Below, one piece after another: positions 5,599 to 63,389 of a stretch of DNA of 64,000 nt. This DNA comes from Methanothrix harundinacea 6Ac (GTDB taxonomy: Archaea > Halobacteriota > Methanosarcinia > Methanotrichales > Methanotrichaceae), in NCBI RefSeq assembly GCF_000235565.1, contig NC_017527.1, positions 1,612,001 through 1,676,000 of the forward strand. Direction: 5' to 3'. Numbering within the stretch: position 1 is the stretch's first letter; the number at the start of each line of letters is the position of its first letter. Made by a program: the position numbers and the translations under genes. The notes under the pieces were generated by a model. It ran no database searches and was not told the DNA's origin. It saw only the letters and a program-made list of their open reading frames with translations.

Positions 5599-5932
5599 GG
5601 ACGCCGCCTTATTGAGGCACATCCTCGACGAGATCGATTTTCTTCTATCGGAATGTGAGGGTGTGGACGCCGAGGATCTTATGAGTGATAAAGTTCTGAG
5701 CAGGGCTTGCGTGCGAAGCCTGGAGATCATCGGCGAGGCTGTCAAGAACGTATCCCAAGAGATTAAGGATGGTCACCCGGAGATCGACTGGAGGCTCATC
5801 GCCGGGATGAGGGACAAGCTCATCCACCAGTACTTCGGGATAGACTGGGACGTGGTCACCAACGTCTTGAACGAGGAGATCAGGCCGCTCAAAGCCGAGA
5901 TCGAGACCTTGCTTTTGGAGGTTGAGAGCTGA
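5591..5932 (+). CDS. hepT: HepT-type HEPN ribonuclease toxin
   Basis: An all-helical HEPN protein with the catalytic R-x4-6-H motif RDKLIHQYFGID near residues 73-84, the RNase centre of HepT toxins. Two starts are possible: TTG 5570, giving seven extra residues deep inside mntA, or CTG 5591, which overlaps the mntA stop by 8 bases and follows GGGAGG at 5576-5581 by 9 bases. I favour CTG because the product then starts like typical HepT proteins (N-K-D-x-x-L-L-R-H-I-L). The toxin would cleave RNA unless AMPylated by MntA. Confidence 0.85.
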   Translation: MNKDAALLRHILDEIDFLLSECEGVDAEDLMSDKVLSRACVRSLEIIGEAVKNVSQEIKDGHPEIDWRLIAGMRDKLIHQYFGIDWDVVTNVLNEEIRPLKAEIETLLLEVES

Positions 5933-6084
5933 TCTTTGCTTTGAAGAGCCGTTTCAACCATGAATCATCCAAATCGACTGCTTCGGAGCGGCAAAGACCA
6001 TTTTTTTCCTACAAAGGGCTTCAGAGTGAGGATTCATTGGGGTTTCCATCCCGCCAGACTTCACTTTTCATCCCGTAACTCTCC

Positions 6085-56722: not shown

Positions 56723-58126
56723 CTACCAGAGCTTGTAGCCGAAGTATCGGGCCGCATAGACGAGGCCTGTTATTATTATCATGATCCCGAAGGCCTTGAC
56801 GATCGCCGATCCGACGGCCAGGTACTCCTCGCCGAGCTTCCCGCCGAAGGACCTGCTGAAGGTGGCTATCGGGATTATCGGGACCCCATGGCCCACCCCG
56901 AAGACGAAGAGCATCAGCCCTCCCGTCAGCGCAGAGATATCCTGGGAGATCAGCCATATCAGGGCAGGAAATACCAGGGATATGGCGCAAGGCGCCCAGC
57001 CGAGGGCGAAGAAGACCCCGAGGGTGAAGGCCCCGATGAAGACGGAGTGCTTGAAGAGGCCTATGGAGAGGTTCACCGCCCTCTCCATCAGCCCCTTCCT
57101 CTCCCTGAACTCCTCCTCCTCCCCCCTCCGAGCCGGAAGACGGGCCTTGATCGGCTCCAGGATCTCCCCGATCGGCTTGAAGACGTTGATCCCCAGAGCC
57201 ACCAGAAGGATCCCGGCCGCCAGGTCGAAGAACCGCGAGTCGCGGACGAAGACCCCCAGGTTCGATATGAAGAGGCCGAGGACGAAGAAGACGATCGCCA
57301 TGCCTAGGGTGAAGGCGATCCCTATCCAGAGCCCCTCCCTCGCCGAGGAGCCGTAATCCTCCTCGTCGGAGAGGACCTTCCTCCTCCTGGAGGTCATGAT
57401 GTAGGAGAACATGGCTATCAGGAGGGCGAGGGAGCAGGGGGAGAAGGAGGTGATGATCCCCAGGCCGAACATCCCGATGAGGGTGACCTTATGGAGGGAG
57501 ACCGCCCCCTCCATCCCCACCCATTCGCCCCGCTCCAGGGCCTCGACCTTCGCCTGGAGGGTCGGGGCGTCCTGGACCCCGTCGATCATCCCCTTCCCGA
57601 GCTGGTAGACGTGATAGATCCCCACCACCATCCCCTCCCTATCGATCAGGAGGATGGTGGGGTTGGAGAAGCCCCCTTCGAAGTTGGTGAAGTCGACGTA
57701 CCTCGCGGCGATCCTGTAGGGCTCGAAATCCTCGGCCCAGATCCAGCTGACCTCTGTCCCCCACCAGCTCTCGGAGAGGGTGCTGCCGTCCTTCGAATAG
57801 GGGTTCTTCCGGACGTTCAGGGTTACGAGGTTGACGTCGGGCTTATTCTCCACCAGCCTTTGAAGCTCTCCGATCTGGGATGCCAGGGCCTTCTCGCACT
57901 CGATGCAGAGGGGGCTCTCTATGTTCGTTATGTGGAGGACGACCACCTCCCCCTCGAAGTCGCTGAGGGAGAAGTTCTGGCCGTCCTGGGTCGTGCCGGA
58001 AAAGTCCGGAGCCCGGATCGGCTCCTGATCCGATCCCAGGGTGGAATTTAAGGAGAAGAGGGCGACGAGGACGGCCGTAAGGGTTATCGCACCTACGATT
58101 AAAAAATGTTTGTGATCAGACCTCAT
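56723..58126 (-). CDS. Exported thioredoxin-like domain fused to CcdA-type membrane protein
   Basis: 467 residues. A signal anchor (~8-30) precedes a thioredoxin/TlpA-like domain, with C-I-E-C in I-E-S-P-L-C-I-E-C-E-K. Six or seven membrane helices follow with Cys in F-S-P-C-S-L-A and W-A-P-C-A-I-S, as in CcdA/DsbD. It is a second transmembrane electron carrier besides the 49825 gene. It follows the thioredoxin-like gene on the same strand by 6 bases, a probable redox partner. A fragment matching its start survives at ~61902-61925. Confidence 0.87.
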   Translation of the reverse strand: MRSDHKHFLIVGAITLTAVLVALFSLNSTLGSDQEPIRAPDFSGTTQDGQNFSLSDFEGEVVVLHITNIESPLCIECEKALASQIGELQRLVENKPDVNLVTLNVRKNPYSKDGSTLSESWWGTEVSWIWAEDFEPYRIAARYVDFTNFEGGFSNPTILLIDREGMVVGIYHVYQLGKGMIDGVQDAPTLQAKVEALERGEWVGMEGAVSLHKVTLIGMFGLGIITSFSPCSLALLIAMFSYIMTSRRRKVLSDEEDYGSSAREGLWIGIAFTLGMAIVFFVLGLFISNLGVFVRDSRFFDLAAGILLVALGINVFKPIGEILEPIKARLPARRGEEEEFRERKGLMERAVNLSIGLFKHSVFIGAFTLGVFFALGWAPCAISLVFPALIWLISQDISALTGGLMLFVFGVGHGVPIIPIATFSRSFGGKLGEEYLAVGSAIVKAFGIMIIITGLVYAARYFGYKLW

Positions 58127-58132
58127 CTCCGA

Positions 58133-58687
58133 TCACGCGTCCCAGTCGCCGACGTTCTCCTCATGATAGTCTATGGCGTCCTCGACGCGCTCTTCAATCC
58201 AACCCTTCCCCGTTACCTTTTCTGTGCTGTGCCAGGCCACCTCGGCTCTCCCGTCCTCTCCAGGCACCAGGGTTATGATGACAGTCAGGGGGACGTTGGA
58301 GGTACCGCCATCTGGATCATAGGCTTCGAAGGCCTCTGCGATCCTTTCGTCGCTACCATCGGCGGGTATCTCATAGAACTCGATCTCGTTTCCGTATTCG
58401 TCCAATATCTCGTTAATGGCCTCAGTCTGAGGAACGCAATAGTCGCATTCCAGATGGGCGTAGATCAGGACCGGCTTATCCTGGAGGGCATCCAAGACCC
58501 AGTCGGGGTGGTTGACATCGGAGCCAGAGGCTGGGGATTGATCAGGATACGTTATCCACCAGTCGTCAGGCTCGGAGCCGACAGGGTATTCTGCTGCCGA
58601 GACGACGGCGACCAGGCCTGCTACAAGGATTACCCAAGCTGCCAGGGCCGCAACCTTAAATTTGACCTGATGTGAAATGTCTACCAA
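58133..58687 (-). CDS. Exported thioredoxin-like protein, copy A
   Basis: About 184 residues. A signal peptide core runs to A-V-V-S-A-A-E. A D-D-W-W-I-T-Y-P-D segment and the redox motif C81-D-Y-C84 follow, with a cis-Pro-like V-P-L-T-V-I-I. It ends H-E-E-N-V-G-D-W-D-A. The start is uncertain: TTG 58687 abuts the GGGAG Shine-Dalgarno sequence, while ATT 58678, 9 bases after it, is conserved in copy B. It is probably reduced by the adjacent CcdA-type protein. Confidence 0.78.
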   Translation of the reverse strand: MVDISHQVKFKVAALAAWVILVAGLVAVVSAAEYPVGSEPDDWWITYPDQSPASGSDVNHPDWVLDALQDKPVLIYAHLECDYCVPQTEAINEILDEYGNEIEFYEIPADGSDERIAEAFEAYDPDGGTSNVPLTVIITLVPGEDGRAEVAWHSTEKVTGKGWIEERVEDAIDYHEENVGDWDA

Positions 58688-59215: not shown

Positions 59216-59615
59216 ATGAGCTATATCGTCGAACCCCAGGGACCCCTCCGTTGAAAGGCTTGCGAGGCTGACGGGAGACCGCTGTAAGGCCAAGAACTCG
59301 GCCTGGTGGCTACAGATCCTCACCGCCACCTTAGACGATCTGGAGGTTGCGGCCGTGGCTGAGGTCTTCAAGGCGATGGCCGACCCTTTCAGGCTTGCGA
59401 TCCTCAAGCTCCTCAGAGACAACGAGCTTTGCGTTTGCGAGATCAATCTGTCCATTCTGAAGAGGCAAGCACTGGTGAAGGATAGAAAGGAGGGGAAATG
59501 GTCCCGATACTGCCTTTCAGAGGGGGCGGTTATCGAGATGATGATGAAGCTGGCAGATCTTATGATGGGTGACGGATGGCTGCCAAAGAGGCGATCGGGG
59601 TGCAGACATACATGA
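59216..59615 (+). pseudogene. arsR: ArsR, copy A, disrupted
   Basis: Compared with the intact copy at 62985, this copy has one extra base near 59238-59248, so the frame from ATG 59216 stops at once. The frame continues from GTG 59355 as an 86-residue ORF. It keeps C-V-C-E and the wing (K-E-G-K-W-S-R-Y) but lacks about 13 residues that include the recognition helix (the Q-S-S-T-S-H-H segment of copy B). The remaining protein could not bind DNA normally. acr3 overlaps its 3' end. Confidence 0.85.
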
Positions 59616-60676
59616 GGAAGAGAGGCCGGGGCAGGCTTCCGGCTTTGAGCAGGTTCCTCACTGTATGGATCTTCGCGGCGATGGTCCTGGGGATCGGTAT
59701 GGGCTATCTCTTCCCAGGAGTCTCAGAATCGATAACGGGATTTCAGGTGGGGAGCACATCGATCCCCATCGCCGTCGGCCTTATATTGATGATGTACCCG
59801 CCCCTGGCCAAGGTGAAGTATGAGGATCTGGGGGAGGTCTTTCGGGACACCAAAGTTCTGGGCCTATCCCTATTTCTTAACTGGGTCGTAGGGCCGGTGC
59901 TGATGTTCGGGTTGGCCATCCTATTCCTGCGAGACCACCCCCATCTCATGGTGGGGCTTATCCTGATAGGGATCGCTCGTTGTATCGCCATGGTGGTCGT
60001 CTGGAACGAGCTTGCCTGCGGCTGCACCGAGTACTGTGCGGGGCTCGTCGGCTTCAACTCGATCTTCCAGGTTTTCTTCTACTCGGTCTACGCTTACTTA
60101 TTCATCACGGTGCTGCCCCCGATCCTCGGCATAGCCGAGGGTCTCGTGGTGGCGATAACCATGGCCGAGATCGCAAAGAGCGTCTTTGTCTATCTTGGGA
60201 TACCCTTCCTGGCGGGGATCATCACCCGTTTCGTTCTGATCAGGAGGCGAGGGATGTCCTGGTACGAGGAGTGGTTCATCCCCAAGATCTCTCCTCTGAC
60301 CCTGATCGCCCTCCTCTTCACCATCGTCGTCATGTTCTCCCTCAAAGGGGAGTACATCGTCGAGCTCCCCATCGACGTGTTAAGGGTTGCGATACCATTA
60401 ATTATATATTTTCTTCTGATGTTCATCCTCGCCTTCTACATTTCCTACAAGATGGGCGTTGGATACGAGAACACCGCCGCCCTCTCCTTCACCGCCGCCA
60501 GCAATAACTTCGAGCTGGCCATCGCCGTGGCCGTCGCCGTCTTCGGGATCAACTCAGGCGAGGCCTTCGCGGCGGTGATAGGCCCCTTGGTGGAGGTTCC
60601 GGTGCTGATAGGTCTGGTGAACGTGGCGCTTTATTTCAAAGATAGATATTTTCAAGGAGTGTACACCGAATGCTAA
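59576..60676 (+). CDS. acr3: Arsenite efflux transporter ACR3
   Basis: 366 residues with ten membrane helices of the ACR3/BASS fold. The conserved transport Cys is in [14 protein letters not shown], and [12 protein letters not shown] lies near the end, the family hallmarks. It exports As(III)/Sb(III) using the proton gradient. ATG 59576 overlaps the broken arsR. The next gene starts within its final codons. Copy B of the module lacks this gene. Confidence 0.93.
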
Positions 60677-61617
60677 GAAAACTAGTGATCTATGGATCAG
60701 TTCTACTGATCGCAACCGCCCTCATCGGCGGTGCAGAGGCGGGATGCGGCTGCAGCGCTGGAAGAAGCAGCTCCTGGAGCGGATCCGACTGGATAGATTC
60801 GACCCCTGGCGGATCGTCACCTGAGCCACTCCCGTCGAATGGGTCGGCTTCTGAAGCCGTTGACGAAGTAATTCCTGCCGAAAAATCTGGAGGAGATGAA
60901 AACGCAGAGATCGGCTTCTCATTCGTATCTGCCGAGGAGCTGGGCGAAAAGCTCGGGATCGAGCCAAAGCCCGTCATCGCCTATGTCAGCAACAGCCCGC
61001 CCTCGGGCGGCTCGTACATAGGGGGATCGATATCGCTCCCATCAAAGGGGTTCATCCAGGCCGACGGCTCCCTCAAGTCCGTGGATGAGCTGGCCGGGGT
61101 TCTTGGATGGGCTGGGATCACTGCGGAGGACGAGGTGGTCCTCTACGGGGACTGCTTCTCCTGCGGCGATTTAACCTTCGTCTACTGGATCATGAAGTAC
61201 CTGGGCCACCAGAAGGTCGAGATCCTCCGGGGTCCTACGGCCGAGCTGCCCACGGCCGGGTCCGTAGCGACGAGACATACGGTTAAATACTACCCCGACC
61301 CTCATATCGAGCTTCTCGCAGACTACGAATCCGTCGCCTCCGGTCAGTTTGTGGTCGTCGACGCGAGGACCCCCGACCAGTTCGGAGAAGGTCACATCGA
61401 CGGAGCGTTGAACATCGAATTCAACAGGGTGATCGATGACAGCTGGATCAAGGATGACTCAGCTCTTGCCGAGATCTTCGCCGACATCGATCCCGATCGG
61501 CCCGTCGCCGTCTACTCCAAGAACGGTGGCACGGCATCCATCATCTGGTACGCCCTGACCCTCCAGGGGCGAGACGTTAAGCTCTACACCTGGAACGACT
61601 GGGTGATACATAAATAA
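60670..61617 (+). CDS. Exported two-domain rhodanese, copy A
   Basis: 315 residues. A signal peptide ([13 protein letters not shown]) leads to a G-C-G-C-S mature start, where the Cys pair could be lipid-linked or metal-binding. Domain 1 has the loop Y-G-D-C-F-S-C-G-D; domain 2 has [11 protein letters not shown] and a G-H-I-D-G-A, but its loop S-K-N-G-G-T has no Cys. So the Cys loop is in the first domain, the reverse of classical thiosulfate sulfurtransferases. It overlaps acr3 by 7 bases. Paralogues are at 50934 and 63444. Confidence 0.83.
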
Positions 61618-61635
61618 CCCAGTCGATTAAAAATC

Positions 61636-61880
61636 AAACTGCGCGCGGCCACCCCGCCCTAAAGGGCGGGGTATGCTTCGGGCCGCGCGCCCCGGTTTGA
61701 CGGAATCCGTAATCGTCGAGTCTTCGTTTGCCCAAATCACCTCCTCAGAAATTATTGTGACTCTGCTTTCGGCTTCCGTAGGAGCCGTGTTAATCAATTT
61801 AAGAAAATATGAAAACTGGGCGAGGGTTCACTTAATCCCCGACCTAAAGGTCGGGGTATTCGTGACCCTCCGCGCTCCCG
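61636..61880. mobile_element. Candidate structured, non-autonomous element between duplicated modules
   Basis: Two hairpins of the same architecture bound this segment. At 61641-61690 outer arms GCGCGCGGCC/GGCCGCGCGC enclose ACCCCGCCC-TAAA-GGGCGGGGT. At 61818-61879 outer arms GAGGGT-CAC/GTGACCCTC enclose CCCCGACC-TAAA-GGTCGGGG. Each inner hairpin has a TAAA loop and is followed by TAT. No transposase is encoded. The layout resembles ends of IS200/IS605-type elements, but this is inference; paired terminators are an alternative. Confidence 0.4.
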
Positions 61881-61901
61881 AAGTAGTAAAAGAATTATTT
61901 T

Positions 61902-61925
61902 TTTGTGATCAGACTCTATATCCGA
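61902..61925 (-). pseudogene. Fragment of the ccdA-type gene start at the duplication junction
   Basis: The bases match the first codons of the gene at 58126 (a run equivalent to S-D-H-K), with its ATG changed to ATA, and diverge after ~20 bases. This is the left end of the duplicated segment and shows that module B was copied with part of the flanking CcdA gene. Confidence 0.6.
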
Positions 61926-62486
61926 TCACGCGTCCCAGTCGCCGACGTTCTCCTCATGATATTGTATTGCGTCCTCGACGTAGGATAGGAGCCAGTCCTC
62001 CCCCGTCTCGCCCTCGCCACTGTGCCAGCCGACGACGACGTTACCTTCCTCGTCCTCTACAAGGGTGATTATGACCGTCAGGGGGATGTACCACGTCCCT
62101 GCGTTGGGATCATAGATCTCAAAGAGGGCGTTGGCTCTTTCGTTGTTCGGATCTGCAATCAGGTTCTCGAAGGCTATGGCGTCTTCACCGACCTCCTCCA
62201 GGACGGCGTTCGCGGCTTCCTCCTGCTTTATGCAGGCTTCGCAGTTGGTGCTGTGGTCCAGGATGAGGATCGGCCCATCTTCCAGGAGCTCGAGGACCCA
62301 TGAGGGGTGGTCGACCTCAGAGCCAGCACCCGGATGGTGGTCGGGGTAGACGGTCCACCAGTCGTCGGGGTCGGGGCCCACCAGGTACTCTGCTGCCGAG
62401 ACGGTGCCGATGAGGCCGGTGGCGAGGACGAGCCCTGCCACCAGGGCCGCAAGGTTATAACTGAGCGGATGCGAAATATCTACCAA
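61926..62486 (-). CDS. Exported thioredoxin-like protein, copy B
   Basis: About 186 residues, paralogous to copy A. A signal core (L-A-T-G-L-I-G-T-V-S-A-A-E), D-D-W-W-T-V-Y-P-D, and a redox motif C-E-A-C in S-T-N-C-E-A-C-I-K follow; the end H-E-E-N-V-G-D-W-D-A is the same. The C-x2-C differs from copy A (D-Y versus E-A), which may change redox potential. The start is uncertain (TTG 62486 or 62492, or conserved ATT 62477). Its own ccdA partner is reduced to a fragment. Confidence 0.76.
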   Translation of the reverse strand: MVDISHPLSYNLAALVAGLVLATGLIGTVSAAEYLVGPDPDDWWTVYPDHHPGAGSEVDHPSWVLELLEDGPILILDHSTNCEACIKQEEAANAVLEEVGEDAIAFENLIADPNNERANALFEIYDPNAGTWYIPLTVIITLVEDEEGNVVVGWHSGEGETGEDWLLSYVEDAIQYHEENVGDWDA

Positions 62487-62836
62487 CTCCAATTATCGTT
62501 TATTGCCCCACTTCGCTTCTCACACCTTTTATCTCCAGCCGCAATCTTGGGCAGATGTATCGACGATCATGGATCTCTCTTTCGCCTCGATTGGCGCTCA
62601 TGGCTGGATTGATCCCCCGGTGGACTATGTTGATATATAAAGCTGTTGGAAATTCTGCGATATTATCTTCAATAATCAAATTGAAGCCCCCCATTTCCCC
62701 GTTTTAACCTCCCATCTGGCTTATAAATGGCATCATACCCATCACCGCCACCGGCGAAAGGAAGGAGCTCCAGGAGGATCGATATACTTATATATCGAAT
62801 TAGCTTGATATGAAAGCTGAAAGCCCCGGAGAGGAC
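62487..62836. other. Divergent control region, module B
   Basis: 350 bases without a gene, homologous to 58688-59061 in patches. It contains an AT-rich TTGATATATAAAGC near 62628-62641 and the operator at 62779-62798. No further ORF or RNA is recognisable. Confidence 0.45.
62779..62798. promoter_or_regulatory. ArsR-type operator overlapping TATA box, module B
   Basis: The same TCGATATA-CTTA-TATATCGA element as in module A, followed by the same AATTAGCTTGATA. It lies 39 bases before the Cys-rich peptide ATG, the expected distance for a TATA box plus short leader. Confidence 0.7.
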
Positions 62837-62984: not shown

Positions 62985-63389
62985 ATGGATATGAGCGACA
63001 TCGTTGAACCCCAGGATCCCTCCGTTGAGCGGCTGGCGAGGCTGATGGGGGATCGCTGTAAGGCTAAGAACGCTAGCAAGAGGCTTCAGACCCTCACCGA
63101 GAAGATAGACGAGGCCAGGATAGCGGCGGAGGTCGAGGTCTTCAGAGCGATGGCAGACCCCTTCAGGCTTGCGATCCTCCAGCTCCTCAGGGAGGGGGAG
63201 CTCTGCGTCTGCGAGATCATGACCGCCCTCAACAGGCCCCAGTCTTCCACCTCTCACCACCTCTCCATCCTTAAGAGGGCGGGGCTGGTGAAGGAGAGGA
63301 AGGAGGGGAAGTGGTCCCGATACCGCCTCTCGGAGGGGGCGGTGATCGAGATGATCAACCTGGCGGGGCTGGTGGCGGAGGGGCGATGA
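62985..63389 (+). CDS. arsR: ArsR-family repressor, copy B (intact)
   Basis: 134 residues. A ~40-residue N-terminal extension precedes a winged helix with the As(III) site E-L-C-V-C-E-I, the recognition helix R-P-Q-S-S-T-S-H-H-L-S-I-L, and the wing R-K-E-G-K-W-S-R-Y. This copy can bind the identical operators of both modules and so could control acr3 in module A in trans. ATG 62985 is used; ATG 62991 is an alternative. Confidence 0.92.
   Translation: MDMSDIVEPQDPSVERLARLMGDRCKAKNASKRLQTLTEKIDEARIAAEVEVFRAMADPFRLAILQLLREGELCVCEIMTALNRPQSSTSHHLSILKRAGLVKERKEGKWSRYRLSEGAVIEMINLAGLVAEGR

Follow-up and report, generated by a model that had tools for sequence, protein, structure and literature searches.

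We assign the 253 bp at positions 61632–61884 of the window (the whole 64,000-nucleotide stretch of Methanothrix harundinacea 6Ac DNA analysed here) to the PATEs (palindrome-associated transposable elements), with a probability of about 0.92. It would be a transposase-less derivative of a tnpA-only (IS200-type) IS200/IS605 element of the Methanosarcinales, and the window copy would have landed in a junction that already existed. It is read on the minus strand, which is that of a tnpA relic inside it, with its left end (LE) at 61884. The assignment draws on ends that resemble those of a tnpA-carrying element in plan and largely in sequence, on multi-copy dispersal, on a target preference, on the tnpA relic, and on a clean empty site, which is that of the parent element and not of the short form.

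PATEs are defined in a passage of PMC3119063 by four traits: palindromes near the termini, no terminal inverted repeats, no duplication of the target, and a length too small to encode a transposase. As far as its sequence can tell, the window element has all four of these structural features, the one concerning the target by way of its parent, and the short form is presumably mobile.

Limits and hairpins of the element

The element is framed by two hairpins built to the same plan: an outer stem, an inner GC-rich stem of 8–9 bp, a TAAA loop, and TAT following the inner stem. The right-end (RE) hairpin (61641–61690, minus strand) has an 8-base one-sided bulge at 61673–61680, while the LE hairpin (61822–61870, minus strand) has an unpaired T at 61828 in its outer stem. 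Both appear in the computed fold, recur beside tnpA in Methanosarcina barkeri (see below), and show covariation. A 321-nt stretch folds far better than its shuffles, with z of -7.3 on the plus strand and -8.1 on the minus strand, and none of 100 shuffles was as good on either strand. The inner-stem pattern has two mismatch-free matches in the 64 kb window, together with the palindromic reverse of hairpin 1 (3 mismatches), where 0.01 were expected; there are no others in the window.

Copies at unrelated sites agree from AATCAAAC to ...GT(A/T)(A/T)TAA and diverge beyond. The limits 61632–61884 and the target TTTACT were transferred to the window from this comparison, and from a pair of M. barkeri plasmids with and without the parent. 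The preliminary description had two such hairpins bounding some 245 bases between rhodanese A and a ccdA fragment. Folding and pattern counts confirm the hairpins and the bounded stretch of roughly 250 bases, and the copies together with the parent's empty site shift its limits slightly, to the 253 bp given here. The ends, AATCAAACTG... and ...CCCGAAGT, are by direct reading not inverted with respect to each other, and thus there are no terminal inverted repeats. A MITE with terminal inverted repeats and a target duplication was considered and set aside, neither being seen. An inverted repeat, CGACTGGG ... CCCAGTCG, is present just outside the element at 61600–61628, around the stop codon of rhodanese A.

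The covariation analysis started from 40 places, from which 25 distinct RE hairpins and 30 distinct LE hairpins were obtained. The counts exclude five of the LE hairpins (L017, L020, L029, L032 and L179, with indels) and three of the RE hairpins (L014, L022 and L179, with the bulge lost or indels). For the LE hairpin (25 rows) one pair is changed on both sides, in 9 cells, and one of 500 shuffles scored as high; for the RE hairpin (18 distinct rows) two pairs are changed on both sides, again in 9 cells, and no shuffle of 500 did so. The number of covarying pairs does not exceed that in the shuffles, being reached by 445 (LE) and 294 (RE) of the 500. These changes on both sides lend the predicted stems support, against which stands the imperfect pairing of the inner stems: they are paired in only 86–88% of cells across the copies, and one particular pair does not form in 14 of the 18 rows.

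The parent element and its mode of insertion

A blastn search of plasmids matched a single record, the plasmid of M. barkeri 227 (NZ_CP009529.1; 90.8% over 45% of the query). Here the same two hairpins bracket an intact gene annotated as IS200/IS605 transposase tnpA. Its product (P0001) matches Y1_Tnp with an E of 6e-36, the NCBI IS200/IS605 transposase model NF033573 with an E of 1.5e-40, and eight distinct sequences of solved structure, including the ISHp608 transposase. A TnpA with matching ends, which the preliminary description had proposed to look for, is thus found. The same ends, placed around tnpA in the one case and around no transposase in the other, bear out its suggestion of a non-autonomous mobile element with ends of the IS200/IS605 type.

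The plasmid of M. barkeri MS provides the empty site of the parent: it has the same flanks (99.8% and 98.3% identical to the 227 plasmid) without the parent element. The parent insertion adjoins TTTATT, and the joint between the two plasmids is ambiguous by only 3 bases, so that there is no target duplication beyond 3 bases; this feature is seen at the parent's empty site only. Near the empty site, the MS plasmid has a long array of direct repeats of about 73 bases (L148 2781–3931), which is also present in the 227 plasmid.

The target was further analysed from 73 distinct left-end rows, after dropping those without an anchor, shorter than 30 bases, or containing N. The six positions 5' of the element, in the orientation of tnpA, are T in 56, T in 72, T in 66, A in 70, T in 54 and T in 71 of the 73 rows, and farther out the flank is nearly random. 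In the window the target site is TTTACT (61885–61890, minus strand), lying directly 5' of the LE, against the consensus TTTATT that both the rows and the empty site give. Elements of the IS200/IS605 family insert next to a short target on the 5' side, have subterminal hairpins and make no duplication, and the short fixed target on the 5' side is the first of these features. A passage of PMC3119063 describes the same insertion mode. The mode of insertion read from these comparisons is that of IS200/IS605 elements.

The tnpA relic and the origin of the short form

There is no intact transposase between the ends of the window copy, such as an autonomous IS200/IS605 element has. At 253 bp it is too short to encode one, and holds no more of tnpA than a decayed, frame-shifted relic of its last ~23 codons (61709–61778, minus strand). 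This consists of two 8-residue matches to the tnpA C-terminus, RKPKAESQ and GKRRLDDY, which are each weak alone (E of 0.15 and 0.22 against L149) and are found in order and at the right spacing. The less decayed and longer copy L038 keeps 32 tnpA residues, up to 81% identical, with E values down to 4e-15. In L043, a longer parent, both ends align with the window element and most of tnpA lies between them. This alignment and the relic together indicate that the short family is a core-deleted form of the parent. Some PATEs of Haloquadratum walsbyi are described in PMC3119063 as derived in this way from IS605-type elements, keeping part of the region coding for the C-terminus of the transposase.

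On the basis of these observations, we hypothesise that a parent of ~730 bp lost most of tnpA and kept its two subterminal hairpins, its cleavage sequences and a short relic from the 3' end of the gene. A Y1 TnpA from elsewhere would bind the hairpins on single-stranded DNA, and cut the right end after TTGATT and the left end after TTTATT. The single strand would then be pasted 3' of a TTTATT-like site without duplicating the target, so that the short form itself would move in trans. The window copy would have landed in this manner in an intergenic junction that was already present, after the gene units had diverged.

Copies in the genome and in the family

The further copies that the preliminary description had suggested searching for are abundant. 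The same genome has a second copy (91% identity across 258 bases) and a third that is decayed, and matches are found in 38 of 50 genomes of the family, this one included (E <= 0.001). In all, 38 distinct full-length transposase-less copies were read (the window's being one); copies are dispersed and have unrelated flanks. Those nearest to the window element have DNA identities of 95% (genome G010), 91% (the same genome) and 90% (G012), over sequence that is mostly non-coding. In the second copy (G000:C2:713343–713592; L014 1844–2093) the bulge of hairpin 1 is lost and the stem is long and perfect; this is possibly a dead right end.

The exact LE-hairpin pattern is found in 49 stretches of the genome collection. 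Going by their titles, most of these (33) are from Methanothrix, Methanosaeta, Methanocrinis or Methanotrichaceae, 12 are from Methanosarcina or Methanosarcinaceae, and 4 are from genomes labelled 'Methanosarcinales archaeon'. By eye, more than half of the 49 are within about 250 bases of the end of the stored sequence, as would be the case if draft assemblies tend to break at repeats of this family.

Transposases similar to P0001 (E <= 1e-40) are present in 9 of the 50 genomes, and at this threshold the genome of the window is not one of them. It has a single Y1_Tnp match, 32% identical to P0001, which belongs to another element. Since this is the only Y1 transposase in the host, present mobility there is doubtful. 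The gene adjoins an ORF that reads like tnpB (a label from reading), and has a different hairpin.

Among three copies in G011/G013 and one in the genome of the window, none has a clean empty site. For one G013 copy and one G011 copy (L031, L161) the flanks are found far apart in the other genome, which may point to recombination between copies. For the second G013 copy, G011 has a lone end-type hairpin at the same target (L191, G011:C90, near 5700–5950), which could be either a copy reduced to its ends or an independent insertion. For the copy in the genome of the window (L095) one flank matches and the other does not. These results are hints that the copies in G011/G013 mark rearrangements, G011 being a draft and flank breaks in this pair having no control rate.

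The junction and its flanking genes

To the left of the element is the gene for rhodanese A (60670–61617, plus strand; PF00581, E 1.9e-15). To the right is an 18-base relic of a ccdA start (61902–61919, minus strand; six codons, with the ATG now ATA; aligned with 58109–58126), and then gene B for a thioredoxin-like protein (61926–62492, minus strand; labelled from reading, with no Pfam match), a paralogue of 58133–58687 that is 54–55% identical to copy A. The similarity of rhodaneses A and B ends some 10 bases short of the end of the rhodanese A gene, ~25 bases from the element. From 61902, at a distance of 17 bases from the element, the two gene units are alike again, over the 18 bases that match the ccdA start. 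The preliminary description was therefore right to place the element at a duplication junction.

The duplication itself has a complicated history. Thioredoxin-like A clusters (100/99) with the G008_C38 gene, which is from another species, and thioredoxin-like B falls elsewhere. The ccdA beside A does not group with the ccdA of G008_C38; the groupings differ, and the array is thus a mosaic of older paralogues. Along the array (window 56723–58687 and 61926–62492), ccdA goes with one paralogous locus of the relatives and the adjacent thioredoxin-like gene with another. On these groupings, the thioredoxin-like pair split before speciation, and the duplication is neither recent nor simple. The rhodanese branches leave an unresolved fork, with lengths of 0.29 (A), 0.20 (B) and 0.10 (G012) amino acid changes per site. 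The ArsR-like gene of the first unit (59340–59615) looks decayed by reading: compared with 62985–63389, about 14 residues around the recognition helix are missing and the frame is short.

The preliminary description left it open whether the element had mediated the duplication or inserted at its junction. Insertion is favoured, and the element probably did not mediate the duplication, on three grounds. The duplicated genes diverged long before the copies of the element, which are 90–95% alike; the target motif and the intergenic gap suffice to explain its position; and the window holds one copy, not the two or three that simple recombination between flanking copies would leave. This suggests most naturally that the element arrived afterwards, at one of the few sites where no gene would be broken. 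No strain was found that has the junction without the element.

It is worth considering a different form of mediation, in which a copy downstream of one rhodanese recombined with a copy in another ccdA start, joining two units and leaving a single element between them. This predicts that the junction holds a single copy and that the outer ccdA is intact, both of which are seen. It would also account for how closely the ccdA relic and the rhodanese similarity approach the element, and it suits the mosaic nature of the unit, where ccdA and the neighbouring thioredoxin-like gene group with different paralogous loci. Two of the three copies tested in G011/G013 have flanks that map far apart in the other genome; this speaks for such mediation, though at a low probability, the frequency of flank breaks in this pair having no control. 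Against it, the gene copies are far more diverged than the copies of the element, and neither crossover partner is seen. In addition, on the far side of the element 8 bases match ccdA (CGATTAAA; 9 once the site is rejoined), which would place the element inside the relic. This match is weak, with shuffling giving about 0.025 (97 of 4137 control stretches), and post hoc, and is not relied on. The predicted element-free junction would read ...CGATTAAA then AGTAAAAG... Overall, we regard such a recombination as unlikely, and insertion into an existing junction as the preferred reading. Slightly less probable again is the broader idea that the element family is a recurrent maker of breakpoints in this methanogen family, its copies recombining and shuffling blocks of genes, with the ccdA / thioredoxin-like / ArsR / rhodanese array as one product.

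Terminator, protein and RNA readings

The hairpins lie between converging genes, and hairpins so placed can end or shield transcripts, as ordinary bidirectional terminators would. Yet this sequence is multi-copy, with sharp edges and a target motif, and the same ends flank tnpA. A consensus scan, made for bacterial terminators, finds no terminator-like site in 61500–62100, and with an element in many copies the terminator reading was dropped as very improbable. The outcome that would have counted against the preliminary description, a sequence single-copy in all genomes with its hairpins acting as terminators, is thus not what is found. A side effect of the element on transcription is possible.

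There is still less to recommend reading the element as a selected structured RNA or as coding for a small membrane protein, the latter being largely refuted: a 131-residue ORF (61673–62068) runs through the element, the fold is strong, and a similar frame is present in the second copy in this genome, but it is not kept in the others (only 4 of 37 copies have a plus-strand frame without stops between the hairpins, a test based on stops in all three frames, since the frames were placed by a fuzzy anchor), there is no Pfam match and no Rfam match here, and the inner part is poorly conserved. The preliminary description had likewise seen no ORF of note.

Comparison with known systems

Our literature search, judged from listings, found no publication describing this element in these methanogens. 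The present analysis gives a name to an unannotated repeat that recurs across the Methanotrichaceae and Methanosarcinaceae, and its ends, target and parent transposase are now given, making proper annotation possible. It also serves as a warning against taking the hairpins of the element for regulatory RNAs or terminators. PATEs, known from a haloarchaeon (PMC3119063) and a Halanaerobium (PMC7290912), would thereby extend to acetoclastic methanogens, with a parent that can be traced.

The closest relative is the tnpA element of the M. barkeri 227 plasmid, which has the same two hairpins, end sequences and type of target; its tnpA is intact, where only a relic is left in the window element. The PATEs of H. 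walsbyi, as portrayed in passages of PMC3119063, resemble the window element in having palindromes near both ends, no terminal inverted repeats, no target duplication, and too little room for a transposase. They differ in belonging to another archaeal order, in that the parent here is tnpA-only, and in having been compared between two strains, whereas the present copies were followed across a family. Finally, the PATE-like sequence of Halanaerobium hydrogeniformans (~271 nt), in the portion of PMC7290912 that deals with it, similarly consists only of ends and the last part of a gene of the transposase region. In that case, however, the relic is of tnpB, the host is a bacterium, and there is a single copy.
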